A DNA stretch of 64,000 nt, taken from contig NC_069125.1 of the NCBI RefSeq assembly GCF_026914265.1, positions 26,697,595-26,761,594 on the forward strand, given 5' to 3'. A program made the translations under genes and the position numbers. The stretch is from Mya arenaria. Taxonomy: Eukaryota > Mollusca > Bivalvia > Myida > Myidae. Positions 15,001-55,520 of this stretch are shown in pieces (position 1 is the first letter of the stretch; every line of letters begins with the position of its first letter). The notes beneath the pieces are model-generated. The model was not told where the DNA came from and ran no database searches. It saw nothing but the letters and a program-made list of their open reading frames with translations.

Positions 15001-18000
15001 CAAAAACAATAGGGATCCTCTACACCTCACGACCAACCTCCCTACCAAGTTTGGTGAACCTAGGTCAAACCATTCTCAAGATATTGAGCGGAAATGTTTT
15101 TTACATTGGGGGTTGCCGCGACCTTGACCTTTGACCTAGTGACCCCAAAAACAATAGGGATCCTCTACACCTCACGACCAACCTCCCTACCAAGTTTGGT
15201 GAACCTAGGTCAAACCATTCTCAAGATATTGAGCGGAAATGTTTTTTACATTGGGGGTCGCCGCGACCTTGACCTTTGACCTAGTGACCCCAAAAACAAT
15301 AGGGATCCTCTACACCTCACGACCAACCTCCCTACCAAGTTTGGTGAACCTAGGTCAAACCATTCTCAAGATATTGAGCGGAAATGTTTTTTACATTGGG
15401 GGTCGCCGCGACCTTGACCTTTGACCTAGTGACCCCAAAAACAATAGGGATCTTCTACACCTCATGACCAACCTCCCTACCAAGTTTGGTGAACCTAGGT
15501 CAAACCATTGTCAAGATATTGAGCGGAAATGTTTTTTACATTGGGGGTCGCCGCGACCTTGACCTTTGACCTAGTGACCCCAAAAACAATAGGGATCTTC
15601 TACACCTCATGACCAACCTCCCTACCAAGTTTGGTGATCCTAGGTCATGCGGTTTTCCAGTTATCGATCGGAAACGAAGTGTGACGTACGGACGGACTGA
15701 CGGACTACCGGACTATCGGACTGACGGACAGGGCAAAAACAATATGTCTCCCCCAGAGAGGGGGAGACATAATTACTTGCATTAAATGCAAACAGGAGTT
15801 ATCTAGATTGGTAAATTAAGTAGGTTGTAGTTGCTGAGATATTAACCTATGTGTGCTTGCATGCAAAACCTTAACCAAGGTGTGACACTGACGCTTGGGT
15901 GAGTAGTATAGCTCTCCATATTCTTCGAATCGTCGAGCTAAAAAAAAACAATAATTGTAATTGTATCCCATTGGTTAAATGTCACACTATTCTCATCAGA
16001 ATAAATGTAATATTACTTTTTCAGTAATGGTACACTGAGAAGAAACCCTGCAGCAAAGTCAGGAAATGTAAGTTTTTCAGGCGGAGAAAAATGGTGGATG
16101 ATCGTTGATTCCTTATCCTTTAGGGCGTGGCCTATAAACCATTCCTGGAAAATAAGGTGGGGTAATAGAGACTATGGGTGTACATAACAGGGCTTCCATT
16201 AAAAGAAGTTTGGAAGTATATATAATCTCATAAAATGTGCCATTCCTCGAAAGTACAAGAACTTGTAAAGGAAGAGGCTTGAAAGGTCAATACATCAAAA
16301 CCTTGTTTTAATGTTATTATAAAACCACATTTTCAACAAGTAAAATGAAATATTTAAGTATAGTTTTGGCAAGTTATAGGTACAAATTAGTTAAATGTAT
16401 TTTGTAGGACAATAAATGCAAAGTTTGTGTCAGAGACATAAACTTCTATATTTCAGAGAAAATATAAAACATTGATGTCGAGGAAGTTCATTCTTCCACT
16501 TCCAAATTTCTAAATATATGTGAATACAAGATAATTCTAGTCCAAATTTCTGTTAATAAGTACATGTATATGCTGTTGAACATCAGTTTGTTTGAACAGT
16601 AAACGAAATAATAAACACTCTTCCTAAATGACATCAAAATCAGAACATGAAATAGTACAAAAGTGAGTTAACTTAATTTATTACATACATGTACATAAAC
16701 ACAATTTATACCTTTGCAGGATCATACTGCTGAATAAATTTCTCAAATTTGTCAAGATCGATCCTTGTTTCCTCCTCACAAATGAAAATCCATTTGGAAA
16801 CCTTTGGATCACTCTTTAATCTGAAATGAAACATACATGTACAATAATCAATATGATCATCTCCTTCAACTTTGAAGTCGCTCAAACAGATGGAAAAAGT
16901 AGTATGGAATTATAAACTTAAGTTAAGAGTTGTTCACATTATGTTTTATACGCAATATTTGTATCTGGCTTAAAAAGGTAACAGTTAATGTATGTGTATA
17001 ATATAAATATCTTATATATCAGATCCCATGGAGATTATAAAGTTACCAAAAATATGTGTATATGATATTTAAATATGTAAAAATCTAGATTTTTTGTTTA
17101 AGATAGCATGCAAAGTTAACCAAAGAAAGTCAATGCTAAATGAGGCGTTAGACAACGGTTTATTTAATTTGGTCTAAGTGTATTGTTATCCTCATACAGG
17201 TAGTCTTTTAAAACAATAAACAACAAGAGATGTTTGTCAAACATTATGCCCCCCCTGAGCACCATGTTGTCAGGATTATATGGACAATTGAATGAAATAT
17301 GCATGGACCGAAATGACAGCTGATTTGTTGCTGTTTTAAGATTATGACCATTAAAATGTGAGGATAAAGTGTGTTATGACCGTCATGACCTTTGACTCTA
17401 TGAACTCAAAATCCAGAGTCATCAGCTGGTCACCAGAAACCTAAATGTCAAGTTTGAGGGCCATGGGTGCAGGCATTGTCAAGTTATCACAAGACAAGTT
17501 TTTTTCGATCAAGGTCACTGTGACCTTGACCTTTGACCCGATGACCCCTTAAATCATAAGGGGTCATCTACAAGTCAGATGCAACTCCAAGTCAAGTTTG
17601 AAGGCCATGGTTTCAGGCATTGTTGAGTTATCACTCGGACAACCTTTTACCATTCAAGATCACTGTGACCTTGACCTTTGGCTCTATGAATCCTAAAATC
17701 AATAAGGGTGATCTACTGGTCAGGCTTAACATCCATGTCAACTTTAATGATCATAGGTTCAGGCATTGTTGAGATATCAGTGGGGGAAGATTTGTTAACT
17801 TTTTTGAGTTAAAGGTTACTGTGACATTGACCTTGGCCTTATGACCCCCAAAGTCAATAGGGGTCATCTACTGGGCAGGCCCAACCTTCATGTCAAGTTC
17901 GATGACCATAGGTCCAAGAATTGTCGAGTTTGTTTTCAAGGTCACTGTGACCTTGACCTTTGACCCCTAAAATCAATAGGGGTCATCTACTGGTCAGGCC

Positions 18001-20380
18001 CAACCTCCATGTCAAGTTTGAGGGCCATGGGTGCAGGCATTGTTGAGTTATCAATTGGACAACCTTTTACCATTAAAGGTCACTGTGACCTTGACCGTTC
18101 GCCCAATGACCCCCAAAAACAATAGGAGTCATCTACTGGTCAGGCTCAACCTCCAAGTCAAGTTTAAGGGCCATGGGTGCAGGCATTGTTGAGTTATCAC
18201 TCGAACAACCTTTTACCATTCAAGGTCACTGTGACCTTGACCTTTGACCCATTGAGCCAAAAAAACAATAGGGGTCAGCTACTGGTCAGGCTCAATCTCC
18301 AAGTCAAGTTTGAGGGCCATGGGTGCAGGCATTGTCACGTTATCACTCGGACAACCTTTTACCATTCAAGGTCACTGTCAGTGTGACCTTGACCTTTGGC
18401 CTGATGACCCCCAAAAACAATAGGGGTCATCTACTGGTCAGGCCCGACCTCCATGTCAAGTTTGAGGGCCATGGGTGCAGGCATTGTTGAGTTATCACTC
18501 GGACAAGCTTTAACTTATTTTACCATTAAAGGTCACTGTGACCTTGACCTTTGACCCAATGACCCCCAAAATCAATAGGGGTCATCTACTGGTCAGGCCC
18601 AACCTTCATGTGAAGTTTGATTACCATACGTCCAGGAATTGTTGAGTTATCACTCGGACAAGCTTTGGTCTACCGACGGACCGACGGACCGACCGACCAA
18701 CATACCGACATGCCTGTGCAAAGCAATATACCCCTCTTCTTCGAAGGGGGGCATAATAAAAAATAAGGAAATAATGATAATTATTTTCCAGTCCATATTA
18801 ACATACTTCTCAAGTAAAGGGAATACAGTCCACATGCCAGTCTTGCCCTGGAATTTTTTATGCGTCAAATACACGGTAGGTTTGTCTTCAGCTTCTCTTG
18901 ACTTCATCTGGTCTCTGAGGGAGAGCTGTAGTTCTCTGGCCCGGCCTGCATGGTACGGGTTGGGCTGTGACAGCACCGCTATCACAGCATCTGATAGCTT
19001 TGTGTCTAAAAAAGTTATGAAAAGCAAGTATTCAATTATTTCACTTAAACCAATTTGAGAAGATTGGAAAAAAATAATATTGCAAATGAATTGTTTTTAA
19101 AACTTATCTAATTTCTTGTAATATTTCAAATGTTGAATGACCAGCACTAAAGTTAAAACTCCTTACCAAAACTATCAGCCGCTTGACAGGTATATGCAGG
19201 AAGTACACCTAAAATACATATATACATATAAATATCTCAATATTAAATATATCTAAAATATCTACAAGTTCAATCATTTTCAAATTAATCAGCATTGCTT
19301 AGACATCAATATATCATGATATACTTCAACCTTTTACCAGACACCAAAATCTTATCCTTTTTTTTCTTGGTCTTGACCAACTCAAATGTTACCGGATTTG
19401 GCTGGTGGGTAAGGAGGGTTTCTTAATTATTATGATCTCTTATCGTTTATTTCATACAATCACTTTATAATGCTGCCAGGACAACTTTGCCTACGTAACA
19501 GTAAAGCATCTGCTTCTTGAGAAAAATTCAAAAGCCCAGTATGATGAGATATATATACCTTATGTTATATATTATTAAATAATATGGAGAAGACTGTGCA
19601 CCAATTTCTCTAAGGTATAAAGGATTGAAGTATCTTATTTCATTGAGCTAAATTATTTGCTTGAATTGTAGTTAATTGCAATTATTCTTTCCAATAAAAC
19701 CTCCTGGAAGGAGAACATTACAGGGCTATTTCTGCCCAATTTGGGAAAAAGACCCTGGACATTTTGGAAAATTTTGCGTCGTGAAAATGCTGAAATTGGG
19801 AAATTTTACAGTTAAAAGAAAACGCTGTCTAGTCTCCTGCGAATTAGGAAATGATTGTATATTAGTTTATTTACCTTTAAAAGACCCAAAATGGCTGAAA
19901 TATCAATCCTTGGGTGTAAATATCTATTGCAATAAATTGATCATGACAGATGATATTTCATACAGATATCTGAATGTGATGAAAATCAATGATTTCTGAG
20001 TTCAATTATCAAAAAAACTTTACGTCAGTTTGCATAATTTATCAAATTGGCAAAAAAATATTAATTTTGGAGATAAATGGATATTTTTTTCGCAAAGGGA
20101 AAAAACCTTTAGATGGAAGTAAATTGCAACAAAAAATCACTGGAATACATAGGTAATTGATTTAGTAGTCTGTGACCTTTAGGTCTATAATTACTGCTGT
20201 CGCGAAAATATATAACAAATCAAAAGTTTGCATGCAATACTGTACAATTTGACATATAATTCCTTGTTTACTAATTAAACAACATTTTGAAGTATTCTTG
20301 TATTTGAAACGCAGATTTTTAATGAAGTTACCTGCAAATATTAGTAAAAGTTTCATTGACACGTCCACGTAGCTAACCAT
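6050..20380 (-). CDS. B3GLCT: beta-1,3-glucosyltransferase (O-fucose-specific), 13 exons
   Basis: ER glycosyltransferase that adds glucose to O-linked fucose on thrombospondin type 1 repeats. Coding exons in gene order: 20332-20380, 19167-19208, 18807-19005, 16712-16820, 16017-16144, 13161-13227, 12460-12573, 11750-11819, 11228-11341, 10696-10798, 9980-10102, 7854-7995, 6050-6214. Every junction is GT/AG, every phase joins, and the sum is 1425 nt (474 aa; the human enzyme is 498). Family marks: CEEETRID (~115), HALKDKEST then FPDFAAGF (~160-170), DPKHE (~195), FIAVKTC (~245), PNTERGHCGKT (~295), the metal-binding DDD (326-328), GERYGY and TGGGGMLFS (~350-378), [10 protein letters not shown], and SFHKHWN near the end. 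The C-terminus HTEL resembles the human REEL ER-retention signal. The N-terminus is hydrophobic, fitting a signal peptide; Met9 is an alternative start. It is divergent from the next gene, whose ATG lies 111 bp away. Its introns hold several repeat elements. Confidence 0.93.
6785..6960 (+). repeat. dispersed repeat, copy 1 (pair with 53297-53455)
   Basis: About 160 bp here, beginning 'aagatttatgcaaaaagct' and running through 'ggtaaacgccaaagacatag' to 'caaacagcacagtg', recurs nearly unchanged at 53297-53455. The copies differ by scattered substitutions and small gaps. It lies in the last intron of B3GLCT. No coding function is visible; the open frames on both strands here are shadows of the repeat. 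Confidence 0.7.
6998..7829. repeat. 32-bp minisatellite, about 26 copies
   Basis: A head-to-tail array of a 32-bp unit, 'ctcaatttggcatgacctta' followed by 'cagataatgaag', spanning about 832 bp, which is 26 units. Variants (gaag/aaag, tttgg/ttcgg, ctc/ctt, acaga/acgga) come in neighbouring blocks, as expected from local unit duplication. The array ends only 24 bp from the splice donor of B3GLCT exon 12, so the intron begins almost directly with the array. There is no spacer/repeat alternation, so it is not CRISPR-like. Confidence 0.95.
8165..9001. mobile_element. hAT-like non-autonomous transposon (837 bp)
   Basis: Ends TAGGGATGCAAACGAATATT and ATTCGTTTGCATCCCTA form an inverted repeat. The 8-bp sequence ATAAATAT lies directly outside both ends (8157-8164 and 9002-9009), a perfect 8-bp target duplication, the hallmark of hAT elements. 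GAATATTCGAATATTCG-type motifs are repeated subterminally at both ends. No transposase frame is present, so it must have moved in trans. It sits in intron 11 of B3GLCT. The intact duplication and well-matched ends suggest a fairly recent insertion. Confidence 0.88.
10935..11070. mobile_element. partial MITE related to 28650-28806
   Basis: The right part, 'tgggttatatgttttactgg' followed by 'aatagc', matches the right end of the MITE at 28650-28806, including 'aaataattgccttccct' just before it. The left end is not recognisable. It is in intron 9 of B3GLCT, between exons 10 and 9. Confidence 0.5.
11950..12390. repeat. decayed core repeats of about 200 bp
   Basis: Two to three degenerate copies of a unit with 'cataaggattacc' / 'cataaggattaacc', 'atgacacatcaac' / 'atgacacttcacc', and 'gtgacctt' or 'gtaacctc' motifs follow each other. 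They lie in the B3GLCT intron between exons 8 and 7. The family resembles the other tandem-core repeats in the window but no terminal hairpin was found. Confidence 0.5.
13482..15938. mobile_element. tandem-core repeat element, interrupted by a second element
   Basis: An outer element made of units of about 190 bp, each with 'tctcaatgcaatac', 'gctgagatattaacctatg', 'gcaaaaccttaaccagaat', 'taataaagggcca' and 'agagttatcttacttgg'. The left end starts near 'aacaagagatgtcacagag'; the right end reads 'ctccatattcttcgaatcgt' followed by 'cgagct'. Another element (14351-15770) has been inserted within it, and the outer repeat resumes at about 15773 with 'attacttgcattaaatgcaa'. Related copies are at 57840-59250. 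The right end also matches the left end of 55935-57585 in inverted orientation. The superfamily is uncertain. Confidence 0.7.
14351..15770. mobile_element. nested element with 145-bp tandem cores and 3' hairpin
   Basis: From 14351 a leader containing 'catgtctcccccat' is followed by about seven copies of a 145-bp unit (period clear from 14690 to 15640), then a GACGGACTGACGGACT microsatellite (about 15690-15735), then a terminal hairpin 'tgtctcccccagag' / 'agggggagaca' ending near 15770. Units 3-6 are almost identical. Each unit contains TGACCTTTGACCT. Leader, tandem core, microsatellite and 3' hairpin together recall the HINE/Helentron-like non-autonomous elements of bivalves; that assignment is an inference. 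It interrupts the outer repeat and lies in intron 5 of B3GLCT. Confidence 0.8.
17222..18757. mobile_element. tandem-core element with terminal hairpin, second type
   Basis: Starts 'aacaagagatgtttgtcaaa' then 'cattatgcccccc', and ends 'cgaaggggggcataat'; ATTATGCCCCCC and GGGGGGCATAAT are an inverted pair. Between them stand about eight degenerate units of some 125-157 bp with 'ggccatgggtgcaggcattg', 'gttgagttatcactcggaca' and 'gtcactgtgaccttgacctt', then a GACGGACCGACGGACC-type microsatellite (about 18675-18705). It has the same overall plan as 14351-15770 but a different sequence. It sits in intron 3 of B3GLCT. Confidence 0.8.
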
Positions 20381-23400: not shown

Positions 23401-26400
23401 ATATGTATTTGAGTTTCGTTGGTAGCTCAGATAATGGAGATTAACAGCGCTTAATCAGCAAAAATCTCTATATAATTTCTCATCCTGCCCATTTTCCTTT
23501 TTTGCTGGTAAATATTGTCTGTATGTTTTCAGTAGCAAAATTTATTTATTTCTTTCATCTATCTTTTGATGATCACTTTATATAGTAAAATTGAATGTGT
23601 TATTGTTTCAATGGTTTTGTGATTTGAAGCTCTTTGTTAATTCACCTAAAATCAATGTTTTTGTTTTTAAGCTTTTTACTTTGAAACAAGTAAGTTTACC
23701 ATGCACATTGTGTCTGATTCACACTTGGAAATGGTTGCACAAAACAATGTGTTGGCATATCAACATGATTATGTCAAAATATTTGTACCAATATGATGTT
23801 TTATTAAAAAATGTGTCATAATAGTTTTACATAATAATGATTGGAAAACTCAAGAAAATTAAAGTATAAGTTATGTTTTATCATTTTTGAAGTTATACAC
23901 CAGGGATGTGATTGTTTTTGCGGATTTTAGTGGATCTGCCCTTCCCCCTCCCCCTTAAAGGAGCAAATATTGGCCCGAGGCAGGGTGCCTCACCCTTTTG
24001 GAGGCCTAAAGTGGCCCAGAACCCCTCGGTGAAATGGTTTCAATCCATCTGAGTGAGCTGCCAGGCCAGTGACATCCCTGTATGACTACATAGCATTTAC
24101 ATAACTTCTCTTAAACACCAACTTATCAATCACCCCAGTGCGCAAACAGTATGTGGATCTGCTGAACGCTGACCCTCGGAAGGCGATTTCCATGTACGAC
24201 TATGAGATTGACCAGAAATGTGCACAGCTTCTCAACTCTGAGAAAACATTTGTGGATCTGAGAGGATCACAAGGTTTGTTTGAAGAAAGGTTCTGTATTC
24301 ACGGGATATACAAGTGTGTTAATGTTATTTTTGACTTCTGTTACTAACTGAATGTAAAAAGGTTAAGGGTTGTTGTTTTTCTTATGCAACCATATTCTTA
24401 TTTGGTTTAAATATTTTTTAAGTATTTCTTCAATAACATGTATGAAAGTGTATGAAAGAAAATTATAGTTCATAGTTCACTTATGGACTTACAATGATAT
24501 AAAGAATACAGCTAGCTATAACTATTTAAAATATTATTACAATATATTAACTCATAATTCATTTTCCAGGAATATAACATTCGATGAAAGCTGAGCTTAT
24601 TTTGTGTGTGTTTTTATCATTGGATCTTAAAATTTCTTAACCCAAATGTCGTTTTTTAGGTGTGTTCTATGCTATGAAGGCTGTGCTGTCATACTACCAT
24701 GCCACAATGAAGACAAAACAGAGACTTCGAGATGTGGATCACATGCTTGCATTCCCGTTTGTCTGTGTGTCTGCCCCAAATATCCCCAGGTAATCTAACC
24801 CATGCTTATTTTGAATGAGCACTTGAAGTTGATTTGTAAGTCAATAAGCTGATTGTACAGAACTTTGTAAAAGTAAACAACATTGTAAACTTTCAAATAT
24901 ATTCTGCTGTGGAAATTTAATGGATACACATGTGATCTGCATATTCTTACAATATTACAGACATCTATTTCAACCATACCTGTTTAATTTTAATAGATGA
25001 GCACATCATCAAATAATTCACATTGTTAAAGTTAACAACAATCTCGTTAATCACGTTGTTAACTTTAACAATGTTCTGAACAATTGGCCCATTATGATGT
25101 TTCTAATTTTAACTGATTGCATTCAGTTTGGTGCCTTATCCGACAAGGCTTATATGTTAAATGAAACATGTATTAATAAATGTTTGGCAATTGTGTAGTA
25201 AATTCATAAACTGGTTCATTTAGTTTTCACTTACCGTGCTAAGACTGTTACTCCAACATTAACCAATGACAATATTTTGATATCTGTGTAATGTCTGCTG
25301 TCTTGTTGCATTGTTTCTCTTGTCTGGTGTTTGTTTGGCCTTCATCCTGGTGTCTTTAAACATGACTTGAGTTTCATTATAGGCTACAAGGCTTTTGACT
25401 GTAGTTTCCATTGCATTATTATTCAAAATTCTTGTGTATTTTCAAAATGATTTTTGCATGAATTTTGTAACAGCATCTTATACCAAGATATGACTCAACT
25501 AGTACGTGTAATGGTATGGCATGCCTTTGTTTATAATTGTTTTCAACAGCCTAGTTACTAGGGTTTCATTGAAAACATGTTTTTGTATAGCAGAACTTAA
25601 TGATCAATGTGTCTATTTTCTAAGATGCAATGATGGCATTTATACCATAATTATGGTATTGGACTATGAGTTGATATTTTAAGAAAGCATGTATATTATA
25701 ACATTGAAGGAGAAGTTTGTCAAACATAACGTATAATATTCCAGGAAAGAACCACCCAGCAGTCGGACAGTGGCTTTGCTGGTGGAGGAGTTTCTCACTT
25801 TTCAGGAGAGCAGACCGGGATTTGTCATCGACTCTGGGTCAGAGGTTAGTTTGCTATTAATAACTATTAAAATTAATGTAAGTGGAAATGCACTTGCACT
25901 ATTTCTAACCTCATTGCTCAAGCAGTAGAACAGGGGCCTTTTCTGGAATATATATATCGCCTTCCTTACAGGAGAGCAGGCTGGGATTGGTTATAAAAAC
26001 AGATTATGAGGTTATTTTGATAGAAATATGTATAAAAATAAATGCAGTTGGAAAGGCCCTCCCTCTACTTCAGACGTCCTTGCTTAAACAGTAGAACAGT
26101 GGCTTTGCCTTTGTAAATCTTTTAAGAAGTATAGGTTGTTAACTTTTAGTTGTTAATTAATGGTTTCTTATACACCTCCACCCCCTAGTTCTTTAGAGGC
26201 ATAAAAAATGCTTTTATTGGAAACATTTGTAGCTTGATAGCCAAAAAAAACTCTACAACCAAATGTTCCACATTAACATATCCTCCATTTATTTTTAGAC
26301 ACATGAGGAAGAGATGAGAGGGTTTATTGACAAGGTGGCTAGGCTGCTGCAGAAATACTTCCCTGACACGCCAAAAATAATAGCTGAGAAATATGTACCT

Positions 26401-29400: not shown

Positions 29401-32400
29401 GAAAATATCATTTTGGTATTTTTCTTTGTTTTGTAATTTAAGCCCGTTTTCAGTTCCAAATAAAACGTTAATGCACACAGGACGGGGACACAATTTCAAC
29501 AACATCATTTCCATTCGGTGAAATATATTATGATTTTACTTTGTAACAAACAATTATCCTCTATATATACACTGTTTTTATTAGATATAGAAGAATAAAC
29601 AATTGCAGTGAAATTTGTCTTTAAGGAAGATTTCATCAAGAGAAACTATTCAAACGCCTTGAACCATTTCGTGTATTTTTTTGTCTCCAATATCGTCCTC
29701 AAGCTTGACCCTACTCAATTTGGACAATATCTGTGTTATGGGCAACTCATTTTTAGCTTTCCCCCACTTCAGGTAAAGAAGCATCACTATACAGACCTGT
29801 GGTCCATGTTGATGAAGGATGGCAAGTCAGCCATGCCAGTCCTAGATCCAACACAAGGTTTGTTGGTACTTGAAATTACTTCATCAGTTTATATGTTATC
29901 TTTTACTTTATTATTCATTGTTTTCAAGTTGACGCTGGCTCTAATAAGACTTATATCTTAATTTTGTTGTTATTGGTAACTGTTGGTACAAGTATGAGGC
30001 TATGGCCATATAAACTAGTTTAAGCCCCCAGGAGCCTCGAGTTCCAGTGAACTTGTTTTTCTCTGACCATAGGCGGTTATTCTATCATTTATCTGTAAAG
30101 CTTTTTCCATGCATATGTTGTCTGTTTGTAATGTTTCTGTCTCTATTTAAGTGTTGTTTCGGCCCTTACTTTGTGTTTTTAAACATGGTTTATATTTGAA
30201 TGTTTGACTACTTGTAGTTTTCATCGTATTATTGTAAAATGCACTTTTATTTTACAGTCTATACTGGTCATCTTGCATGCCATCCTGTTTTAAACAGTCA
30301 CCTGTTTTAACCAAACTTGCCAAATGTTACTATATACAATATGGAATAATGTACTAAACAGACACCTGTCTAAGGCAGCCGCAGTTATTTTTCTTTGACC
30401 CTGAAAAGCCATATTATCTCGCATTTGCAGCCATTTGTGAAAAACTCTTTTCCCCATATATTTTCCAGTGTTTCACATAATGACAAGGAATTTCTCAAAT
30501 CATATCTTAAGATAACACTAATTGCTATTTGTACATTACAGCCCAGCACCCGTCTTGGCGCCATTGGTTCAATGACCTGATTCCTCCGTACACACGACCG
30601 GCTAACAGACGTACAGCCAGAGAAGAGAGAGAGGCAGAGAGGGAAAGACTTGGACAGCAGAGGCGGGAACAAGCACTCACCTATAGAGATAATGACCAAC
30701 AACAGAGAAGGTATGGAAGAGTGTGAGTTTGAAGTATGAATTGGTAGGGGCTTGGACAGCAGAGGCGGGAAAAAGCACTCTTCTATAGAGACAATGATCA
30801 AGAACAGAGAAGGTATTAGCTTGGACAGCAGAGGCTGGAACAAGCACTCACCTATAGAGGAAATGACCAACAACAGTAAAGGTATGGAAGAGTGTGAGTT
30901 TGAAGTGTGAATTAGTATGGGTTTGGACTTAGGAGGCAGAAGCAGCACATGGCAATATAGCAAGAATGATCAACAATTGAAGATGTAAGGAAAGTGTGAG
31001 TGTGAAGTGGGGTAGATAAGAAAAGATGGGAGCAAGAGAGGCTTGAAGAGGAAGTATGGAAATATGATTGTGAAGTGTAAGGTATGAATTTGGGAGGAGT
31101 TAGTAGAAGGACTGGGACAATAGTAGTGTGATAGTCACTTGCCTAAGAGTATCCCTAACAACAAAATGAGAGTGTGAAGTGTGAATTGGGTGTGAAATAG
31201 CAAGGTTTGACTTTGACAATGGAGACAGATACAAGAACAGCCGATATAGAGATTGACCAACAATGAAGTAGTTAGGGAAAGTGTGAGTTTGAGTATGAAG
31301 TGTGAAATGAGAAGAGAGGGAGGATGAAAGAGGGAGACTTGAACAAACAACATTAGAGAAGATGTGGAAAATGTGTGAGTTTTAGTTTAAGTGGGAGTGT
31401 CAGTTTGGTAGATGAGATTCCAGGGACGCTATTGAAAATTGGAAAACAGAGGTAAGACAAACCCTACTCTGTTAAAAAAAAAAAATCTGTTTTAGAGAAG
31501 GTAGGTTAAAGTGTGAGTTTGAAGCGTGAAGTATCTGTGGGATATCAAGCTCAAGGGGTTTAGACTGCATATTGCAATTATTTATGCATATTTTGCTAAA
31601 TATTATTTAAAATTTGTAACATTTTTTTATTCACATGTTTGAGTCAGTCAGTCTCAAACTCAGACTCCTGATGATGTTTTAGTTTAAGTGGTATTTGATT
31701 GCAGTCATTTGGTTTGTAGATACCGTCACCAGTCAGATTCACCATGGTAACTTAATAAATATTACTGGAAATTGAAAAGAGTTTCAATTACAATTGAAGG
31801 GAAAGTCTAATAATCTATTGTTTCAAACTGTAAGAAATAGCATATCCAATGTTGTTTATAATGTAATCTACCTTTATTTTTTTCATTCTTATCGAGCAGA
31901 GGGTATGTGAGTTGTCTACTGTTGCGTGTTTTGTTGGACCATATGTTATGTAATTTAACAGTTACTGTATGAACATAATGTTCCCTTTTATTTACAGCTC
32001 CTGAGTATATTATGATTTATTCATCCCAAATACACCACTAATGGCTAGGTTGACTCTAATTTCTCCATAATTATGTTTCACATGATATTGATCTGGTTAA
32101 CCATCACATTTGGATATACTCCTCATTTACATAAATGTTTATTGATTGGCTAATATTTATCAAATAACAACCATTGACCAATCAAAATGTTACTTACAGT
32201 TTTTATGAAACTTTTATTAAATCAGTGGTCAAGGGATGTAATATTGCTTCATAATTATTTAACTCTTACAGATAATTGAACTGATAATTGATAAGTGACA
32301 AATAACTTTCTGACTATATATTCCTTCATGGAACTATAAGTACTATAAAACAGATGTTGTGACATACTCGTGCTATACAAACACTTGTACATATATATTT

Positions 32401-35400
32401 TCATAAAAAGAATCATATCATAAATGAATTTATGCATTATGAAATACCTCATGATATATTAACATTGAGTAAAAACTCTTGACGCAGTCATAAATATATA
32501 GCTTTGAAAATTGAGCATGTATAGTGAAGTTTTATGTATGAAGCACTTTAAATGTTTCAATTAATTAAAAATTATATAAATAGAATATTGCATTCATGGT
32601 GATTCAAAACAGAATGATTTTAATGTGTTAACTCAAATTGTTCAAAAGTCAACAAAGACTTGTTTTATAAAACTTGTTTTGAATTACCACAGGACTGTAA
32701 TATCCTGTATTTATGATTGTGTCTAGCCAAGGGCCAGTGTATGTGATGAGAAAGGGTGATTCAAAAGCCTCTTCCCTGTAAGTCTTGTAGTAAGACAATT
32801 CAACTCACTTTATGTACTTCCATTAAGAGAGTTGAGTTTAGTGTATACGTTGTGGGACACCCCCCAGTTCTCCTTTATAAAATTCTTAATCATGTTGTAT
32901 GATTATTAGGTGATTATAAATTTATTGCTAAATTTTCATCCCCGCCTGCCCCCTCTTTTTTCTGCAGTCCCTATAATTTTATTGACTCAAATAAAGATAT
33001 TGAACTGGGTTCGGTATTTGTGTATTGGCCGGGTACTGTCAGAGAATGGCGTTTATTCATACCAGCCCGTGTGATGTAAAAATTCATCTGTAAAAAAGAT
33101 GAATTGTTACAACGGTGTTCATGTCTCATCTCGAGAAAACATGTATATGATTCCTTATGAAATAAGAAAGAGCATGAACTCATATTCAATGGTAAAACAG
33201 TCATCTGCGAAAAAGAAAAAAATAATACATAAAATGTCGACCCCGCCCCAATTTAAAAAAACAATTTGAATGAAAATCTAGCAATTAATTTGTACTGGCC
33301 TTAGGGATACAGTGTTGATTAATTATAGTTGAAAATTGATTGTTTAAGACTTACTTTGTTGATAATTGATTTCATAATCATGGGGTTAATTATTGCTATG
33401 TGTTGGTATTATCTAAAAATTATATATATATATCTGGGGTGCCGACAATGGTTTTTCATTGCATTTAATGTACTGGCATTTAAGAAAGCAGCTGAGCACA
33501 CATCTAACAAGCTTTCATTTAAGCCTAGTGGAAAATATTTGTAACAAAGTTATTTCGTAGAAAATATTTGAAATTTGTGTTAAATGACTGGAACTGGCCA
33601 CGGTGCCTCAGTTCTTCCTGGAGACAGGTCATTTTGGGTTGCAGCCAAAACTCAGTGGGAACTATCTTTTCATGTGTGTCTTTTCCCATATTATTGATAA
33701 AAATTATGTTTTAACCAAATTTATGTAGTAGTTAGCATTGCACAATTAAAAACTAGGAAAATGTTTAGGTCAAATGTTCTTTAACTTGAAGCACTTTTAG
33801 ACTATTATTATTTTTACAAGCTTATTATTTTATTCTATTTTATAATAAGCACTAAATTTACACCACACTGCATTGTAGTATTTCATTTTTTCACTTAATA
33901 AAATATTTTGTATTATTTAGACAATATATACTCTTGAATCATTTATATAATAATAAGTTATTCTGTATTATTTTGATGATGTCTGTTCAGTGTTGTAATT
34001 TTCAGTTTTTATCTCAAATGTTCTCAATATGCACAATGTTGATCATGTGTATTTCAAAGAAGATTTTTTTTAAATGTCTGGTTTCCAGTTTCTATTCTCA
34101 TTTCCTCAATACTTGTTATTTTAACCATTTTTGCTGGTTTTTTTCTATCTGTTTTGTTTTTCTCACTTTCCCTTTTTTCCATTCTCCCTTTTTTTTCAAT
34201 TTTCACTGTATTTCAAGTGCACTTTCATTCAAAATTGCTGTACATTTCCCATTTAATATTCCCGTTTTGCTTAAACTTGTTTGTATCTCTGATTTTTCCT
34301 GTTCATCCCATTTTCACTTTCTTTCCCATATTCACTGTAGTTCCCTCACATTATTTCCCATATTCACTGTATTTTCCCATGTTTTTAGACGAGATGAGGC
34401 TGAGCTGATGCGGTTAGCAGCTGCAGACAGACAGAGAATGGAGAAAGAAAAAGCATTGCTTGAGGACCAACTGGCTGAGGTTTGATATGTTATATAATAT
34501 CGAATAATTTTGTCACTTCAGTTTATTCTAATTTATTTTTTTCTAAATTTTAATTGAAGTCAAACCCACAATCTCTTGTGTGAAAGGCAGACACCTACTT
34601 TACCATAGATCACTTTCACTATATTTTTTAGGTTACAAAGCATTTAAATGAGGAAAATTAAATGTCAGAAATCTATACAGTTTAACTACGCTGCAAGTAG
34701 ATGTGTAGTAATTTCAATTTATCAGTTGAACTTTATGGTTTATTCTTTGGAATCTTAATTATTTATGCAATTATACACTTCACTGGCAATCAATTTAGAC
34801 TTAGTAATACCAAATACATGTTGAAACACTACTATTAATATTTTGATTATTATTTAAAATTTTACGAACTACTTTAACTGATGTACTGGCATACATCCGA
34901 GTTTTTTGGGGGTAGAAAATGGCCAAGGCGTTCCAAATGGTATTTTAACGTGTAACAACATGTTTTAGATATTTTAAAGAATTAAAAGTGGTGTGTATTA
35001 AGTGTGCCATACATATTCTAAAATAATACTTCAAAAGTTATTTATAAAGTGGTATATATTTGTGAGACATTATATTATTATATTTTTTTCCTCATTGTAG
35101 TTTTGTCTTTGAGGTTCAAGAGATCTCGCTACGTTATAAGTTTAATGTAACAATTACTGCACATTTATGTATAGTGCAACATAACCTTAAGTTTAATTTA
35201 AGCCTCGATTTGAGTATGCAGCAACTTAACCTTTTCAGAGAAGTTTTTCAAAATTATTTCACAACCACGGCCCCCATCAATAATAATTTCAGTGTAAATC
35301 ATATTCCTATTCTGCAGTTAAGAATCAATGAATTCCAAAGCATTGTATTTCAAACAATTTATTAACAATAATGTTTAAACTGATGTTTTAAAGAAATGAA

Positions 35401-38400
35401 CATCTTTGTGATTAATGAATGCTATAAAAGAACGGACCTGATTGAAGCAGATTTTTTTTCTGTTGAAAAGGAGATCATTAATATGATTAAATGATTGAAC
35501 ATCCTGACTGAAGTGTTTTGTGTTCTACAAATATTGGACAAGCAGATATGATAGTGCATCTGTTTATTTTGTCTGACAAATATTTAAGGAAATTGCCTTC
35601 ACATTTGTTAGTTGCAAAGACCTTAATGATCCGTACAGGCATTTCAATGAAAAGAAAATAATTTACATTTTTTTTATTATATGGCTTTTTGGTGGTTTAT
35701 AGAGGTTTATCAGTGAAATAGAGTTGGTATTATGCTGTTTTGAAATTTTAGCCCTTTCTGACATCCAAAACAAACATCAGCACACACAGGGAAGGGGGTG
35801 GTACGCAATTTCAATGTCATTTCTGAAATGACGTTATGTTTACAAACACTTCAGCGCTCTTTCTGTAAAACTTTTATTAAATGTCATTTTGTATTCCTTT
35901 ATTATAGGCATATGTTTATGATAAAAAAAGAAATCGTTTAGTTAAATGTGAGATCACAAAATATTAACCTTCTGAACACTAACATTAAATACTTCACTCA
36001 TGGCTATGTCACTCATGAAACAAACAATTATTCGTCATGTGTTGAGCTTAAAGCTCCCTTTATGCATGAATTGTATGTTTCAAAAGTTGATAACAGATTA
36101 AGTATTTGTCCAGAAAGATCAGGCTGAAGAAGAAATCATATCATTTGTGGCATTTATCATGTGTGCATACATCTTAAAGAAGAATGTAGCTCAATTTATG
36201 CATTTGAGAAAAAGACAACTTGTATATATATGTGTATGCATACAACAAAAAGTAAAAATACCATGCCATGTAATGTGTGCATGCATTTTTAAAAAAAGAA
36301 AAAAAGTATGCATTTTTTATTCATGTTTGAAATACAAGATTGCCATGGATTTTAAACAGAGAAAAAGTCAAAGTGTTTGTGTGTAAGTATGTATCTGAAA
36401 AAAGTAAAAATGCCATGTTACCGGTAATCTTTAATTTATGCATAAAGTGTATATATCCACATGAAAAAAAACATGAAAAGAAAAATGGTATAAGTGGTTA
36501 CATTTAAACAGAAAAGTGGTATGTGTGGTAATATTGAAACAGAAAAGTGGTATGTGTGGTAATATTGAAACATAAAAGTGGTATGTGTGGTAATGTTGAA
36601 ACAGAAAAGTGGTATGTGTGGTAATATTGAAACAGAAAAGTGGTATGTGTGGTAATGTTATAACAGAAAAGAGGTATGTGTGGTAATATCGTAACAGAAA
36701 AGTGGTATGTGTGATAATATTTAAACAGAAAAGTGGTATGTGTGGTAATATTGAAACAGAAAAGTGGTATGTGTGGTAATATTTAAATAGAAAAGTGTTA
36801 TGTGTGGTAATGTGGTAATATCGAAACAGAAAAGTGGTATGTGTGGTAAATTTTAACCAGAAGAGTGGTATGTGTGGTAATATCATAACAGAAAAGTGGT
36901 ATGTGTGGTAATATCAAAACAGAAAAGAGGTATGTGTGGTTATATCGAAACAGAAAAGTGGTATGTGTGGTAATATCGAAACAGAAAAGTGGTATGTGTG
37001 GTAATATTGTAACAGAAAAGTGGTATGTGTGGTAATATCGAAACAGAAAAGTGGTATGTGTGGTAATATCGTAACAGAAAAGTGGTATGTGTGGTAATAT
37101 TGTAACAGAAAAGTGGTATGTGTGGTAATATTGTAACAGAAAAGTGGTATGTGTGGTAATATCGAAACAGAAAAGTGGTATGTGTGGTAATATCGAAACA
37201 GAAAAGTGGTATGTGTGGTAATATTGAAACAGAAAAGTGGTATGTGTGGTAATATCGAAACAGAAAAGTGGTATGTGTGGTAATATTGTAACAGAAAAGT
37301 GGTATGTGTGGTAATATCGAAACAGAAAAGTTGTATGTGTGGTAATATTGAAACATGAAAGTGGTATGTTTTTATAGATGGCTTTAAGAGCGCTTTTGAG
37401 TTATACCACTTGTTTGAATGAAAGACAAACAACAGGCAAATTATCTTGGCTCTTTGGCACTCTTGTTTAAATTCTATCCAGATATAAAAATCAGAATTAA
37501 ATCATTTATGATCAAATCTCTTCCCACATTTCACAGGAGCGCCAGAGGCGAGAGGAGGCCGAGCGCAGAAACCAGGAGGAGATTGAGAGACTGAAACAGC
37601 AGATGGCCATGATGAATGTACAGGTATGATGATTTTGGGTTCTATACCTGTTCAGAACATCATCAGCAATGATCAAGGAATCTGTATCACATGTTGAATA
37701 GCTACTTTAACAAACTGTCTATACCTTTGTCACTATAAAAGCTCTTTAGAGAAAAATCTTACCTCTTTACCTCCCCTTGCTATGAGGTAATCATTGGCTC
37801 TAGCTTTATTGGAACTGTAGTGATGGGGTTCATTACTTGGATTCATCTGTTTGTTCAGTTTATGCCAAGTACATAAATGCCAATAAATTAATTTCTATTA
37901 ACGCTGCACTCTCACAGATTGCCCGTTTTGACAACTTTTTTTATTTTTGGTCTTGGACTGAGCAAATTTTTGCGTAAATGTCTGGAAACCAGTGATACCA
38001 GACTGCTGATAAAAGTTCAGATCACAGATTTTCATATATACGATCTAGAGTTGACTAAATTTAAGGCATTGATACCCAAATCAGCTAATTGTGAAACAAA
38101 AACTAAAAAAATGTCAAAACTTTCAATCTATGAGATTGCAGCTTTAAATTAAAAGATAAGATAAAAATCAGACAAGATATTTTTATACAAATACATATTT
38201 TTTTCAGCCAAGCAGGCCCCCATCCAACTACAGTATGAGTTCCTACATCAGTCGGATATTGGTGCCTCCCCCACCCACACCAGCCTCACGCCATTCCATC
38301 CCCCCACCCCCAATTCGACAGACACCTGCCCGGACACCAACGCCTGCTACCTCACCAACAGAACAGTTCAACGTCGTCATGCGGGACTTCATTAAGAAGA

Positions 38401-41400
38401 TTGCTGATGCTCAGAACAGAAGTAAGAATACTTTTTTTTAGTAAATGACAGTTTTATTAAAAAAATATATATGTTTTAGTGTATAGCTCTAGATTGTTTC
38501 ATCTTTTCTGCTTTTTTACGCGTGTCTTTTTTTTCCTACTTATCATGATTAATGTAAGGGTTTTCATTCTGGGCTTGTAGCTATAGTCCCATTTACATGA
38601 TACTGTTCTGAGAAAATTACTAAAATATGGTCATTTTAGTCTCACCATTGTGTTAGTGTGTGTTTTTTTTTACTTGACATGCATTCATTTGTTAGTTCAA
38701 CCAAACAGGAAGTGTTATATCAGGCAAATATTCAACTAATTGTCTCGATATAATATTTGTCATGTGCACTGTTTCAGTTGCCCACTGTGAGAAGGGATCC
38801 TCAGAACAGGAACTTCTGGACAAGAAAACTGAGGGATTCCTTCACCAGAATATCCGGGATATCAAACAAGCCCAGGTATGGACCATCTTTGTCAAACACT
38901 CTTTCAAAGACATGCTTGACAAAAAATATCCACAGTCACTGAAGAGCAGTTCGATGTATATGCTTCTGTCTGCCGTATGTGTGTGAGTGCATGCGTCTGA
39001 CCAGTTTTGGCATATATCCACTCTTTCACTGACATGCTTGACAAAAAATATCCACAGTCACTGAAGAGCAGTTCGATGTATATGCTTCTGTCTGCCGTAT
39101 GTGTGTGAGTGCATGCGTCTGACCAGTTTTGGCATATATCCACTCTTTCACTGACATGCTTGACAAAAAATATCCACAATCTCTGAATGGCAGTTCGAAT
39201 CGATGTATATGCTTCTGTCTGCCATATTTGTTTGTGTGCGTTTGTCTGACCAGTTTTGGCATACAGTAGAATCCCGTTGGCTCGAACTTCCAGGGACCTG
39301 CAAAAATACCTTGAGCCTTCGGAAAATTCGAGTTAAGCGGGAATGCTTACCTTCAGTATAAAAAAATCGGCCCTTAACTTCAAGTTCAAGCCAACGAGGA
39401 ATTCAAGCCAAGTGATTTCGAGCCAACGGGGTTGGACTGTATATCCATGCTGTTATTTGGCCATGCTTTGGGGAATTTTAAAATAATTTTGTTCACCATG
39501 TGTGTCTCTTTCAAGACACATGTCTATATGTCAAGGTCACACTTGAACCATAGCCTCTTGGTTCTTTTTTCGTAAAAGCGGCTCTTTCAAGCAATTGATT
39601 ATACATTTCTTAACACTATCAAAGGCCTTATTCGAAATCAGCAAAAAGTAAAACACCAAGCCCCAATATCATAAAAATACTTAAGTCAAATCTCAATCTC
39701 AGTCTCAACTCATTTTTCCACAGTACAATATGACATTATTAAAAATTAATAATATTTAACTATTTTTAAAAGCACATTCTCACATGCATTGTGTTGATTA
39801 ACATTATAGTTCAATATTCTAAAAAATATGTCCTTCCCTTGTTTAGGTATCAACTTCAAATAAAATGAGTTTACTTTTTACGTTATGTTTTTTTAATACT
39901 GGCTTAAACTGATTTTTCAAACCAGAGCTTTTTTCTTTTTTTTATATCTTTTAAATCAATTTACATGTTTGTTTTTCGTCATGAAATAATTTTGTTTTTG
40001 GGACTTTGAAAAAAAGAATGATCAGAATCAGTTGTTGTAGTACATGTATTTTCATTTTTTATCGTAAAGATTTTTGAAAAAATTGATGCTGTTCTTTTGT
40101 TCAAATTTATCACCCTATTGATTTATTAGTAGTATTATTTTCGTTGTGACGTTTTTCTAAGTTAGAAAAATATGTAGTTTTTTTGTGGATTCATTTTCAT
40201 CAACATGCATTGCAATTGATTGTAACATCATACACTTCATACTTTTTCACGTATAAAATCTTTTTAGTTTTGTCTTACCTAGTATATTGATTATATGCTT
40301 GTTAATATCTATTATTATTTTCTCACCTTTGTGTACCGCTATCTGAATATCCCTGCTCAAAGGGTTTGTCATATTATCAACAAAAATCTTTCTGGCGGCT
40401 TTGCGGTCAAAACTTGTGGAAGTAGTGACACAATCTCAACTGACCACTTTAAATTAAATAAAACATACATACATATTTTTTTTGTATTCAAATATCATTT
40501 GTCAACACAGGGGCAGTATTCATAAAACTTCTTAAGTCATTTTCTAACTTACCCGGTAAGTCGATTTTTTAAAATTTTAAAGTAAAATGAAAAGAAATGT
40601 ATAAGTGTTTTTAACATTTAAGTATGTTTTTTTCAATAAGGTCAATGATAATAATGTATTTTGGAAAATCTTTATTTTTTATTTCATATGACTAAAGAGA
40701 TAATAAAATCAGGAAAGTGACTTTAGTTAGGAAATGACCTAATAAGTTTTATGAATACCCCCCCTTGTTATTATAAAAATCTGAATGGAAATAGAACAAA
40801 TATTTTATTTGGCCTTCATAAATATGAAGTATTTAAATATAATTAGACCTGGTTATTACAAAAAAAAAAAAATACATTATTTATTTATGGTAGAATGTGT
40901 TGGTAAGTGACATTAAGCCATAAAATAGAATAAATCCCTGGATAATAGGAAAAGACAGAACCTAAAATCTGGCACCAAAACAATCGGATTCGTCTATTAA
41001 AGAGGTTTCATATTTTCTCCCATGCACAGCTACCAAATCTTTATGGTAATATTTCATATGAAATATGAGTCAATTTTCGCCAAATTATTTGAAAAGTAAT
41101 CTAGTATTAAATCTTATGGAAGTTCTTGTGTTTTGTGTTCCTAAGATACACCAAATTTGTTTCTCAATCTGTTCGAAGACATTTTCCCCTAGCTATTTGC
41201 ATACGTAGTGAAATCTTAAGCATTGATTGTTTTGCTTCTATTTGAACTATTCTAACTTGCAACTTATGATATAAAAGTCAAAAGATGTTTTTTATTTTCC
41301 GAAGAAAATGCAAGCATTTAGGTAATTTTGTTGATCTGCTGGAAATATCAAAGAAATGGAAATGATCGTTTTTGACATTATTGTTTATGACATCACTGTT

Positions 41401-43985: not shown

Positions 43986-45500
43986 ATGGCCCGATATCTT
44001 GGTCACGTTTTATGGCGACGGGCTTTACTACCATTGTTAAATAACAGTCATGCGACTTCAAATCTAATTAAGAAAAGCATTTACACAAAATCTACAAGAG
44101 TAAAGGTAGGGTTTGTTAAATACAAATAGCCATATTTAATTGCTTTTTATGTGCAACGATTAGCTTGTAACGATAGTTCTTCAAAATGCTTTTAATAAAA
44201 TAATTGTTGAGAGTATGAATAACGCGGTATCCTGATAAAGATACATAAGATGAGGCCAAGAACCTTTATTTAAATATATTGTTTGACAAAAATACGGTTT
44301 AATTGAAAAAAAATTATGAGTGACAATGATAAATATAGTGACTGTATTTAGCTATTTAAAAAACGCATTACCTTTCAGGCATCAGTAAATTTCACAACAA
44401 GTAGTTGTTGTTCTTTGCAGTCCCATGAGAGCGCAGGCGAAGTCAACGCGCGGCGTGCAAATGATGTTTGCGAAGCGTTGATGATTGGGGATGGTCACGC
44501 TAACGAGACAAACGCCAGACACAAGAGAAAATTCACCAATTTGGTGGTTCGCTGGAGCAGAGATAGGGACGTCATGTTTTGTCCAATTTATAAGATTGCG
44601 TCGACGTTTTGGCGCCGTGTGTTTATGATAAATAATGAACGTAAAGATAAGTCTATTTCTAAATTGACTAATCCTTTCACATTACTACCAGACAAAGAGT
44701 TTCCCACGAGCAATATAAGAAGCGTCAATGAACTAGTATCTAATTCTTATAAGTTCATGTTTACAAGGGACCCATACACACGGTTATTTTCTTTTTATTT
44801 TGATAAATTGGTAGCTCCAGTACCGTATTATTGGAAGACGGTTGGAAAAGAAATTTTGAAAAACAGACCAGGCAGGGCGAATAAGGCGAAGTGTGGGCAT
44901 GACATTACCTTTCCAGAATTTATACAGTATGTGATTAAAACGTTGAAGAATGGAAAAAGTGATCCTCATTGGAGTAGAATGGAAACCCTGTGCAATCCAT
45001 GTGAAATAAAGTATAATTTCACTGGAAAATTGGAAAATTTTCTACCCGACTCTTTTGAAATGACTAAGAAATTGAAGATGAATACGATGGCTGAGTATTT
45101 ATATGTTAACGGTAGTGCGTCATACAGTGACGATGCAATTTTAGACAAAGTAAGGCAGCCATTTACATTTAAACGACATTATACTCCATGCATACACTTT
45201 CAAGAAGCGGTTTCTAGAACTTGGAAAACCCTTCAAATCAGAGGCATGATTGGCGATGACTCTCCACCAAAAGATATTGGTGAACGGTCGTCGTGGAAAG
45301 AATTGTTTGAAAGCGCCAAACGATCGAAGGTGGAATCCACAAAAGAGACTCGAATGAAAATGAAAAAGGACAATTACCGAAAATACTGGGCTGAAATAAG
45401 CATTTCTGATATAGAAGAGCTAAGGCATTTGTACGCGCGAGATTTTAAGATTTTCTGGTACAACGATACACCCGAAGATGTGTTCCAAAGACGATCGTAA
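43986..45500 (+). CDS. carbohydrate sulfotransferase (HNK-1 ST / CHST8-14 type)
   Basis: Transfers sulfate from PAPS to a sugar of a glycan, normally in the Golgi lumen. Two exons are visible: 43986-44105 (40 codons from ATG, donor gtaggg) and 44421-45500 (acceptor tttgcag, phase 0): 399 aa. The 5'-phosphosulfate loop is CPIYKIASTFWRRVF (~94-108) and the 3'-phosphate site is RDPYTRLFSFYFDK (~156-169), both in the positions usual for the family (Sulfotransfer_2). Downstream HYTPCIHFQ and the C-terminal region also fit. No transmembrane anchor is seen in the first 40 residues, and the ATG is directly preceded by an acceptor-like 'ttttttattttcag', so an upstream exon with the anchor, or a 5' UTR intron, may exist. 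AATAAA at 45845-45850 may end the transcript. Two broken copies follow (45988-46225 and 54647-55380), a sign of local duplication. Confidence 0.82.
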
Positions 45501-45850: not shown

Positions 45851-45987
45851 AAGAGCAACAAAAAGTAAATGACAACATACATGGTATATGAAACCAGTGA
45901 GACGCTGGGAAAGAGTAGTTTTACATCCAAAGTAGGCTATTGACTATTGTAAATATATATTGGGTTTACTCTCTCTTATTCGGTGCC

Positions 45988-46225
45988 TAGACTTTCAAGA
46001 ATCGGTTTCTAGAACTTGGAAAACCCTTCAAATCAGAGTCATGATTGGCGGTGATACCCCGCCAAAGGTCGTCTTGGAAAGAACTGTTTGAAAAGGCCTT
46101 ACGATATCAATTGAGATTTTCAAAAGAACACAAAAAAAACACAAACTGGCTTTTAGTAAAAGTATACTGTGCAGAAACAAGCATATCTGATATAAAAGAG
46201 CTGTGGATTTCTTCTTTGTTTTCAT
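45988..46225 (+). pseudogene. C-terminal fragment of a sulfotransferase copy
   Basis: Matches the intact gene from 'actttcaagaagcggtttct' (45190 there) to the SISDIEEL region. It keeps FQESVSRTWKTLQI-like coding and 'attggcggtgataccccgcc', but the sequence between has gaps and frame changes: the reading after the PPK region is out of the parental frame, and the end diverges at 'gagctgtggatttc'. Only about 75 codons remain. It lies 490 bp after the intact gene. It is more diverged than the larger copy at 54647-55380. Confidence 0.8.
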
Positions 46226-54646: not shown

Positions 54647-55380
54647 ACCCATACACACGGTTATTTTCTTTTTATTTTGATAAATTGGTAGCTCCAGTAC
54701 CGTATTATTGGAAGACGGTTGGAAAAGAAATTTGAAAAACAGACCAGGCAGGGCGAATAAGGCGAAGTGTGGGCATGACATTACCTTTCCAGAATTTATA
54801 CAGTATGTGATTAAAACGTTGAATAATGGAAAAAGTGATCCTCATTGGAGTAGAATGGAAACCCTGTGCAATCCATGTGAAATAAAGTATAAGTTCACTG
54901 GAAAATTGGAAAAAAAATACCAGACTCTTTTAATATATAAGAAATTGAAGATGAACACGATGGCTGAGTTTTTATATACTAACGGTAGTGAGTCATATAG
55001 TGACGATGCAATTTTAGACAAAGTAAGGCAATCATTCAAATTTAAACCACAATATATTTCGTGTATAAACTTTCAAGAAGCGGTTTCTAGAAGTTGGAAA
55101 ACCCTTCAAATGAGAGGTATTATTGGCGATGACTCTCCACCAAAAGATATTGATGAACAATCGTTGTGAAAAGAATTGTTTGAAAGCGCCAAACGATCGA
55201 AACTGGAATCCACAAAAGAGACTCGAAGGAAAATGAAAAAGGACAGTTACCGAAAAAACTGGGCAGAATTATATAAGCATTTCTGATATAGAAGAGCTAA
55301 GGCATTTGTACGCGCGAGATTTTAAGATTTTCGGGTACAACGATACACCCGAAGATGTGTTCCAAGGAAGATCGCAAAAC
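54647..55380 (+). pseudogene. 5'-truncated sulfotransferase copy
   Basis: Matches the intact gene from 'acccatacacacggttattt' (44770 there) through its stop region. The first 770 bp of the gene region, including exon 1 and the PAPS 5'-phosphosulfate loop, are absent. A one-base deletion ('aaatttgaaaaac' for 'aaattttgaaaaac', about 54730) shifts the frame, a stop interrupts the ERSSWKE region (about 55167), and an insertion disrupts the SISDIEEL region. Long runs remain identical, so the copy is young relative to 45988-46225. With half of the substrate-binding site missing it cannot be active. Confidence 0.9.
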
Positions 55381-55520
55381 CTTGTCAAAATATGAAAGTC
55401 GATTCACAATAATCAAATGGTATAAATGCCATTACAAGTATTACATTTTTTGACAACTGTAAACACATCAACCATTGTCGGACACGGCTAATGACACACA
55501 TCTCGGCCAACTTTGTAGAA
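55381..55520 (+). repeat. duplicated 3' flank of the sulfotransferase, part 1
   Basis: 'aaaccttgtcaaaatatgaa' and 'gtattacatttttt' to 'aatgacacacatctcgg' match 45500-45700 after the intact gene, with small deletions. The duplication therefore covers non-coding flank and was made at DNA level. It breaks off near 55520 and resumes at about 57586. Confidence 0.8.

Follow-up and report, generated by a model that had tools for sequence, protein, structure and literature searches.

The intron that follows exon 12 of a predicted gene in Mya arenaria opens with sequence resembling the end of that exon, which raises two questions: how did exon sequence come to be repeated in an intron, and can the repeats act on the message? 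We analysed a window of 64,000 nucleotides around this intron (positions 26697595-26761594 of contig 4, in a searched assembly of 1,216,080,610 bases in 18 contigs). On the + strand of the window, we assembled by eye a predicted gene of 17 exons (20492-42865), whose 16 introns all begin with GT and end with AG and whose exons join into a single open frame of 711 codons. In this model exon 12 keeps the position given to it in an earlier, sequence-only reading of the same DNA. It is 169 nt long, its unrepeated first part encodes AQHPSWRHWFNDLIPPYTRPANRRTA and its tail a charged stretch, and exons 13 and 14 are predicted to carry the same kind of charged sequence onward in frame. Its donor ranks second-highest among the 16 donors of the model on an approximate PWM. 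The features needed here are as follows, with a slash marking the splice border.

30542-30710, + strand: exon 12, with splice signals cattacag/CCCAGC and GAGAAG/gtatggaa
30711-30716, + strand: donor of exon 12, AAG/GTATGG, giving an in-frame join from exon 12 to exon 13
34389-34479, + strand: exon 13, the next exon in the 17-exon model

The sequence-only reading had called the gene TBC-like. The predicted protein has no match to PF00566 at E<=1, and Pfam as a whole yields nothing above the curated cut-off, the only match being C1q at E 0.2. None of the 37 listed matches from a PF00566 search of the genome falls in the 64-kb window, blastp against the translations of 30 fetched PF00566 loci of this genome reached at best E 0.61, and a search of solved structures gave nothing useful (best E 0.017, NONO, residues 466-614). 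Because no Pfam match rises above the curated cut-off, the label stays unproven. Exons 12, 13 and 14 were also considered as old duplicates of one another at the DNA level. The similarity is weak, with 11, 3 and 4 of 300 mononucleotide shuffles equalling the scores of the pairs 12-13, 12-14 and 13-14, respectively; as shared Glu/Arg-rich coding may explain it, we do not claim a duplicate origin.

Downstream of exon 12, the exon tail, its GT donor and the first intron bases recur head to tail on one strand, as the sequence-only reading had described. The array comprises nine units: c1, which is the exon itself, two young copies (c2 and c3) and six decayed ones (c4-c9). The eight units beyond c1 follow in order over 30751-31532, and all copies lie wholly within intron 12 of the gene model.

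30649-30750, + strand: c1, 62 nt of exon-12 tail plus the donor and following intron, 40 intron bases in all
30751-30819, + strand: c2, 90-91% identical to c1 over 66 nt, without the intron part and with GTATTA at 30813
30820-30921, + strand: c3, 92% identical to c1 over 102 nt (62 exon and 40 intron), GTATGG kept at 30882
30922-31010, + strand: c4, decayed, about 70%
31011-31105, + strand: c5, decayed, middle of the unit missing
31106-31208, + strand: c6, decayed, about 63-66%
31209-31308, + strand: c7, decayed, 74%, top score among the old copies
31309-31410, + strand: c8, decayed, matching 30620-30652 and 30695-30747 with the middle missing, 78% over 37 nt (repeat family D6)
31411-31532, + strand: c9, decayed, about 65%, 84% over 37 nt (repeat family D3), donor-like AAG/GTAGGT at 31501

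The young copies are 90-92% identical to the source, and c4-c9 about 63-75% over aligned parts of 51-102 columns. The stretch 30649-30714 has direct repeats at 30751-30816 (91%) and 30820-30885 (92%), and 30649-30766 matches 30820-30937 at 89% over 118 nt. Pieces of c5 and c8 match farther up exon 12, back to 30633 and 30620, respectively. The earlier count of two clear copies therefore holds, whereas the decayed copies number six rather than about five. The two clear copies are present as claimed, but their limits move from 30749-30815 and 30821-30910 to those listed above; likewise, the GT sites that had been put near 30815 and 30884 exist, but at 30813 and 30882, the latter with the same GTATGG as the source.

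The decayed copies were assessed in a search with 30600-30752, with masking after every match, which gave 12 matches within 30753-34388. Two of these, scoring 89.5 and 40.0, are the young copies, and seven are decayed pieces within the array.

31209-31302: decayed piece, score 42.5
30923-31008: decayed piece, score 32.0
31439-31530: decayed piece, score 26.3
31343-31397: decayed piece, score 23.6
31106-31189: decayed piece, score 23.0
31047-31097: decayed piece, score 21.4
31309-31341: decayed piece, score 19.0

The remaining three matches score just 12.0-12.2; one (31011-31042) fits the array order, and the other two, at 32513 and 32964, lie outside the array. As a null we took the best score in each of 500 dinucleotide shuffles of 30937-31560 (mean 15.2, 95% point 19.1, 99% point 22.2, maximum 24.0). 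Of the decayed pieces, three exceed the maximum of these shuffles, two others lie above the 99% point and a further one above the 95% point. With a score of 19.0, the piece at 31309-31341 falls just below the 95% point, and that at 31011-31042 (12.0) is at chance level alone; both are counted in the array because they lie in order between stronger pieces. The longest stretch of the array with no listed match is 31398-31438.

Are these units simply a repeat of some familiar kind? The sequence-only reading had said that finding them genome-wide, as an unrelated dispersed repeat, would speak against it. Each half of the array (30649-30937 and 30937-31560) matched only itself in the 1.216 Gb assembly at E<=0.001, in a search that skips very common words, where a dispersed repeat or transposon would be found at many loci. 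TRF lists 29 rows of tandem repeats in the window, an abundance that might favour a dispersed repeat or an assembly artefact, but the single locus of both halves argues against the former, and the 8-37% by which the copies differ from their source is above expected read or assembly error; we regard this explanation as almost certainly wrong. Minisatellites and VNTRs consist of head-to-tail units, and the array resembles them in its units of about 69-102 nt. It differs in that its units run across an exon border and have mostly diverged beyond the reach of TRF, which alone reports 2.0 copies of 69 nt. The array instead has the marks of a border-spanning tandem partial exon duplication: one copy lies in a predicted coding exon, the order of exon, splice site and intron is kept, and the copies are adjacent, on the same strand, in the same gene and nowhere else.

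The similarities among the units bear on their history. When all units were scored against all others, c1 was the closest relative of seven of the eight copies, although it had entered the comparison with 29 extra bases, which somewhat favours it. Copy c4 is nearest to c7 by a narrow margin (34 versus 33 and 32), and several scores between pairs of old copies are at chance level (null 99% point 17.0). Ordered units, a single locus and the central place of c1 give good support to the tandem duplication across the exon-intron border that had been proposed from the sequence. Most likely, the exon is the source of the copies. The direction from exon to intron rests on this star-shaped similarity, and slow evolution of the exon alone could give the same star.

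We consider it probable, and hold with good confidence, that a border-spanning stretch of ~100 nt was tandemly duplicated again and again, with growth at the exon end and unconstrained decay of the copies left in the intron. In each round, the stretch at the 3' border of exon 12 (tail, 5' splice site and first intron bases) would be duplicated, perhaps by slippage or unequal exchange. Because the upstream donor would retain its original context every time, the mRNA would be unchanged, and the downstream copy would turn intronic and decay, presumably under selective neutrality. Purifying selection would hold the exon copy constant, so that it would remain the best match to fresh copies; growth would then most likely occur at the exon end, with older copies shifting downstream and fading.

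The copies that adjoin exon 12, c2 and c3, are its two most similar ones (1 in 28 by chance). Farther out the age order is uneven, with Spearman coefficients against distance of -0.55 (p 0.16) for score and -0.53 (p 0.18) for identity over the eight copies. Copy c7 scores nearer to the exon than c4-c6 do, and c4 pairs with c7 at a lag of 287, so part of the growth has probably taken place inside the old array. Aligned as blocks, c4-c6 and c7-c9 agree in 203 of 350 columns (gaps counted), a sign that the older portion of the array went through one or more internal duplications. These observations bear on a different possibility, that the exon seeded each copy independently, through template switching or conversion, with no growth of the array itself. 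Such re-seeding would account for the star-like similarity centred on the exon, but not readily for the contiguous head-to-tail order, for a c4 slightly nearer to c7 than to the exon, or for the alignment of c4-c6 to c7-c9, which internal duplication would give; we judge it very unlikely.

Alternatively, the array may have come first. An intronic minisatellite could have extended over the border, and exon 12 could have been lengthened by recruiting ~62-90 nt of charged coding sequence from it. The repeated part does start inside exon 12, after an unrepeated first part, charged low-complexity sequence is easily recruited, and the copies can be polarised only with orthologues. On the other hand, exons 13 and 14 extend the same charged sequence in frame, so that the tail fits an older charged stretch, and the similarities among the units centre on c1. 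We think this order of events unlikely, and prefer repeated duplication outward from the exon border.

Could the copies nevertheless serve the gene? The sequence-only reading had seen in the array a reservoir of donor sites and of coiled-coil coding sequence. The results support neither proposal. Between 30740 and 31540 there are five donor-like sites scoring at least 3.0, compared with 4.3 on average in shuffles (428 of 1000 reach as many), and three scoring at least 4.6, compared with 1.8 (256 of 1000); donor-like sites are thus no commoner than in shuffles. A cruder count had given an excess, with three sites at or above the true donor in 30720-31540 (3.7/kb versus 0.4/kb over 20000-43000), which the shuffles attribute to composition. 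As for coding sequence, the frame of exon 12 is open through the real donor at 30711 in the gene model and closes shortly afterwards.

30724-30726, + strand: TGA reached when exon 12 is read past its donor, giving QQQRRYGRV and then the stop; the frame is open over 30511-30723

Reading through the donor adds only four codons, YGRV, before this stop. Copy c3 has a further stop in the exon's frame just upstream of its GTATGG, the array has 24, 24 and 22 stops in its three frames, and the longest open run (56 codons, spanning c2 and c3) is out of the exon's frame. The acceptors are also poor: the best tract upstream of an AG in the array is 0.56 pyrimidine, and the 16 acceptors of the model range from 0.50 to 0.94, with 15 of the 16 at 0.62 or above and exon 6 as the lone low one (0.50). 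Because of the TGA, the stops in all frames and the weak acceptors, the array as we read its frames cannot lengthen the protein by a shift of donor. In an array of cassette or mutually exclusive exons, every copy would have its own acceptor and donor and a frame that can be used; these copies do not.

Lengthening of the exon may be possible solely as a truncating isoform; all later donors lie beyond the in-frame TGA, and any of them would read one and the same stop. In such a case the donors at 30882, 31452 and 31501 would compete with 30711 and produce a longer exon ending at 30724-30726, that is, a regulated truncating message. The GT at 30882 is identical to the true donor in nine bases, and on the approximate PWM the sites at 31452 and 31501 outscore it (6.30 and 6.18 versus 4.63). 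Yet such sites are as common in shuffles of the same sequence, the copies decay, and the donor of c2 has changed, and we find a regulatory role of this kind quite unlikely. No sign of function was found in the frames, acceptors or donor-like sites of the array, which most likely has none.

A second case occurs in the same gene, at exon 6 (25745-25844).

25758-25920, + strand: source unit, the last 87 nt of exon 6 plus the donor and following intron, 76 intron bases in all
25921-26084, + strand: copy of the unit, 111 of 164 columns identical
26089-26108, + strand: possible stub of a third unit, 18 of 20 identical, alone below the shuffle maximum

Against the rest of intron 6 the unit scores 55.3, where the maximum of 500 shuffles is 19.4, and the copy is found at one place in the genome. 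Within it lies an exon-like stretch (25972-26010) with an acceptor, ttacag/, that is pyrimidine-rich by eye and with 13 open codons in phase, which encode ESRLGLVIKTDYE, compared with ESRPGFVIDSGSE in exon 6. Its donor, GAG/GTTATT, has lost the G at +5. The stretch is possibly a cryptic or dying alternative exon.

The same layout appears at other loci of the genome, where donors and other splice sites were placed by eye. At one PF00566 exon (L061), the tail, a probable donor and the intron start form a unit of ~100 nt, with copies identical at 87 of 103 and 33 of 41 positions. At an exon of the TPH family (L070, PF13868; match G000:C7:68935150-68935380), three copies fall in identity with distance (82/102, 78/106 and 42/60), and the donor region is present in the first two. 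Copies on the acceptor side occur at L046, at L064 and at the pair L043/L063. These loci return to the possibility that the array preceded the exon tail, since exon 6 and L061 share the layout though their exon parts are not charged low-complexity sequence, which argues against recruitment; L070 is charged and gives no help.

To what extent are exons favoured sites of such duplication? The survey covered 50 exons, a small and non-random sample made up of the 17 exons of this gene and 33 of the 38 fetched PF00566 and PF13868 loci. Five loci (L037, L038, L048, L052 and L062) had been excluded before the count as segmental doubles or as one long frame; L062 scored as high as L061, and the other four were outside the 25 best. 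A near copy with a score of at least 25 was found for 10 of the 50 exons (11 of 100 sides), which represent at most nine independent cases because L043 and L063 are copies of each other in one gene. Random noncoding segments, passed through the same low-complexity filter, reached this score in 80 of 400 cases in the window and in 92 of 300 taken from sequence flanking the surveyed loci, these segments being searched on one side only and overlapping, and therefore non-independent. No near copy at this threshold was found at 30 Pkinase loci, for which the query length differed slightly, or at 12 Ras loci; including them gives 10 of 92, although many are long single frames at near-identical places, which say little about split genes. 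As random noncoding segments carry near copies more often than exon sides do, we reject the idea that duplication targets exons. Local tandem duplication is common around the surveyed genes and exon borders share in it; splicing hides the copies that span a border.

A broader reading is that introns grow by serial duplication of their borders, in the manner of a conveyor anchored on the exon. Exon borders would act as fixed seeds, because splicing hides donor-spanning duplications, selection fixes the exon and intronic copies drift, and a noticeable share of the exons of this genome would trail ghost tails. We put this forward tentatively and consider it rather doubtful. If it were true, the age of ghost tails would rise with distance, and they would record the lengthening of introns in a clock-like way and supply cryptic donors. 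Should the layout at exon 12, exon 6, L061 and L070 be general, ghost copies near exons would allow the growth of introns to be dated cheaply, and could lead gene predictors and the mapping of splice junctions from short reads astray.

Two side observations were made among the surveyed loci. L061 and L062 (G000:C9:6732017 and 7962886) are two occurrences, ~1.23 Mb apart, of one TBC exon and its near copy, and similar doubles occur elsewhere among the matches listed (for example, C14:10148394 and 10742195), which suggests that the assembly contains haplotypes left unmerged or segmental duplications. Kinase-family matches of equal score, in open frames of ~924 aa, are scattered over chromosomes (for example, G000:C13:46282080, C8:56722339 and C2:45002016) and look like an amplified or mobile element.

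How does the intron-12 array compare with events already described? Partial, border-crossing and intronic duplications of exons are an established class. In the portion of the Exonize report available to us (PMC12343006), inter-boundary and intronic matches are counted, such searches are said to be able to find degenerate exons, and partial, inter-boundary and intronic events affect significantly more genes than full-exon duplication. The array is like that class in that an intron has received duplicated sequence from an exon of its own gene. It is unlike it in that eight consecutive copies take up only the exon tail (62 of the 169 nt of exon 12 in c2 and c3) together with the donor, and never the acceptor. 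This coverage of the exon is the quantity on which Exonize bases its cut-off for inter-boundary matches.

The accessible part of PMC9013439 deals with exons duplicated in tandem and with intronic copies that lack annotation, and it cites an estimate from 2002 of about 10% of animal genes for tandemly duplicated exons. With the tandem and mutually exclusive exons described there, the array shares a local tandem duplication that yields extra exon-like sequence, partly unannotated. The array copies differ in having neither a good acceptor each nor an open exon frame throughout, and are for that reason not selectable exons. The part consulted of PMC2891723 describes intron gain in which a coding stretch that includes a proto-splice site is tandemly duplicated, and mentions premature stops in such introns. 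There too the duplicated stretch carries AG/GT and the duplicated part is spliced out, but intron 12 already existed, and duplication lengthened it without creating a new intron position.

Among the matches listed in a search of literature titles and abstract openings, none described serial donor-spanning copies of an exon tail. As a single case the array is ordinary, a known type of event in unusually legible form; that the layout recurs within the gene and at exons elsewhere is a modest addition. It offers a readable case of cost-free intron growth, in which border duplications would be tolerated because they leave the message unchanged.

Other repeats lie nearby in the window. Intron 13 contains a 31-bp array (36474-37369, 28.7 copies, unit containing GGTATGTGTGG) found at one locus in the genome search, and GC skew is 0.35 over 36001-38000. 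A relationship between the exon-12 unit and this array through a shared CAGARAAG..GTATG was considered and dropped, because an equal or higher score turned up in 76 of 300 shuffles. Exon 16 ends at 38875, and some 20 bases beyond it begins an array of 122-bp units (38897-39263, 3.0 copies) that contains no exon sequence. Upstream of the gene, 14584-15647 and 17447-18666 are built of tandem units of 145-146 bp (7.3 copies in the former; 2.3 and 4.7 in the latter). Downstream of the gene, 44352-45497 on the + strand is a single open frame of 382 codons, possibly an intronless gene, and fragments resembling it recur, by eye, near 45936-46224 and 55170-55392.
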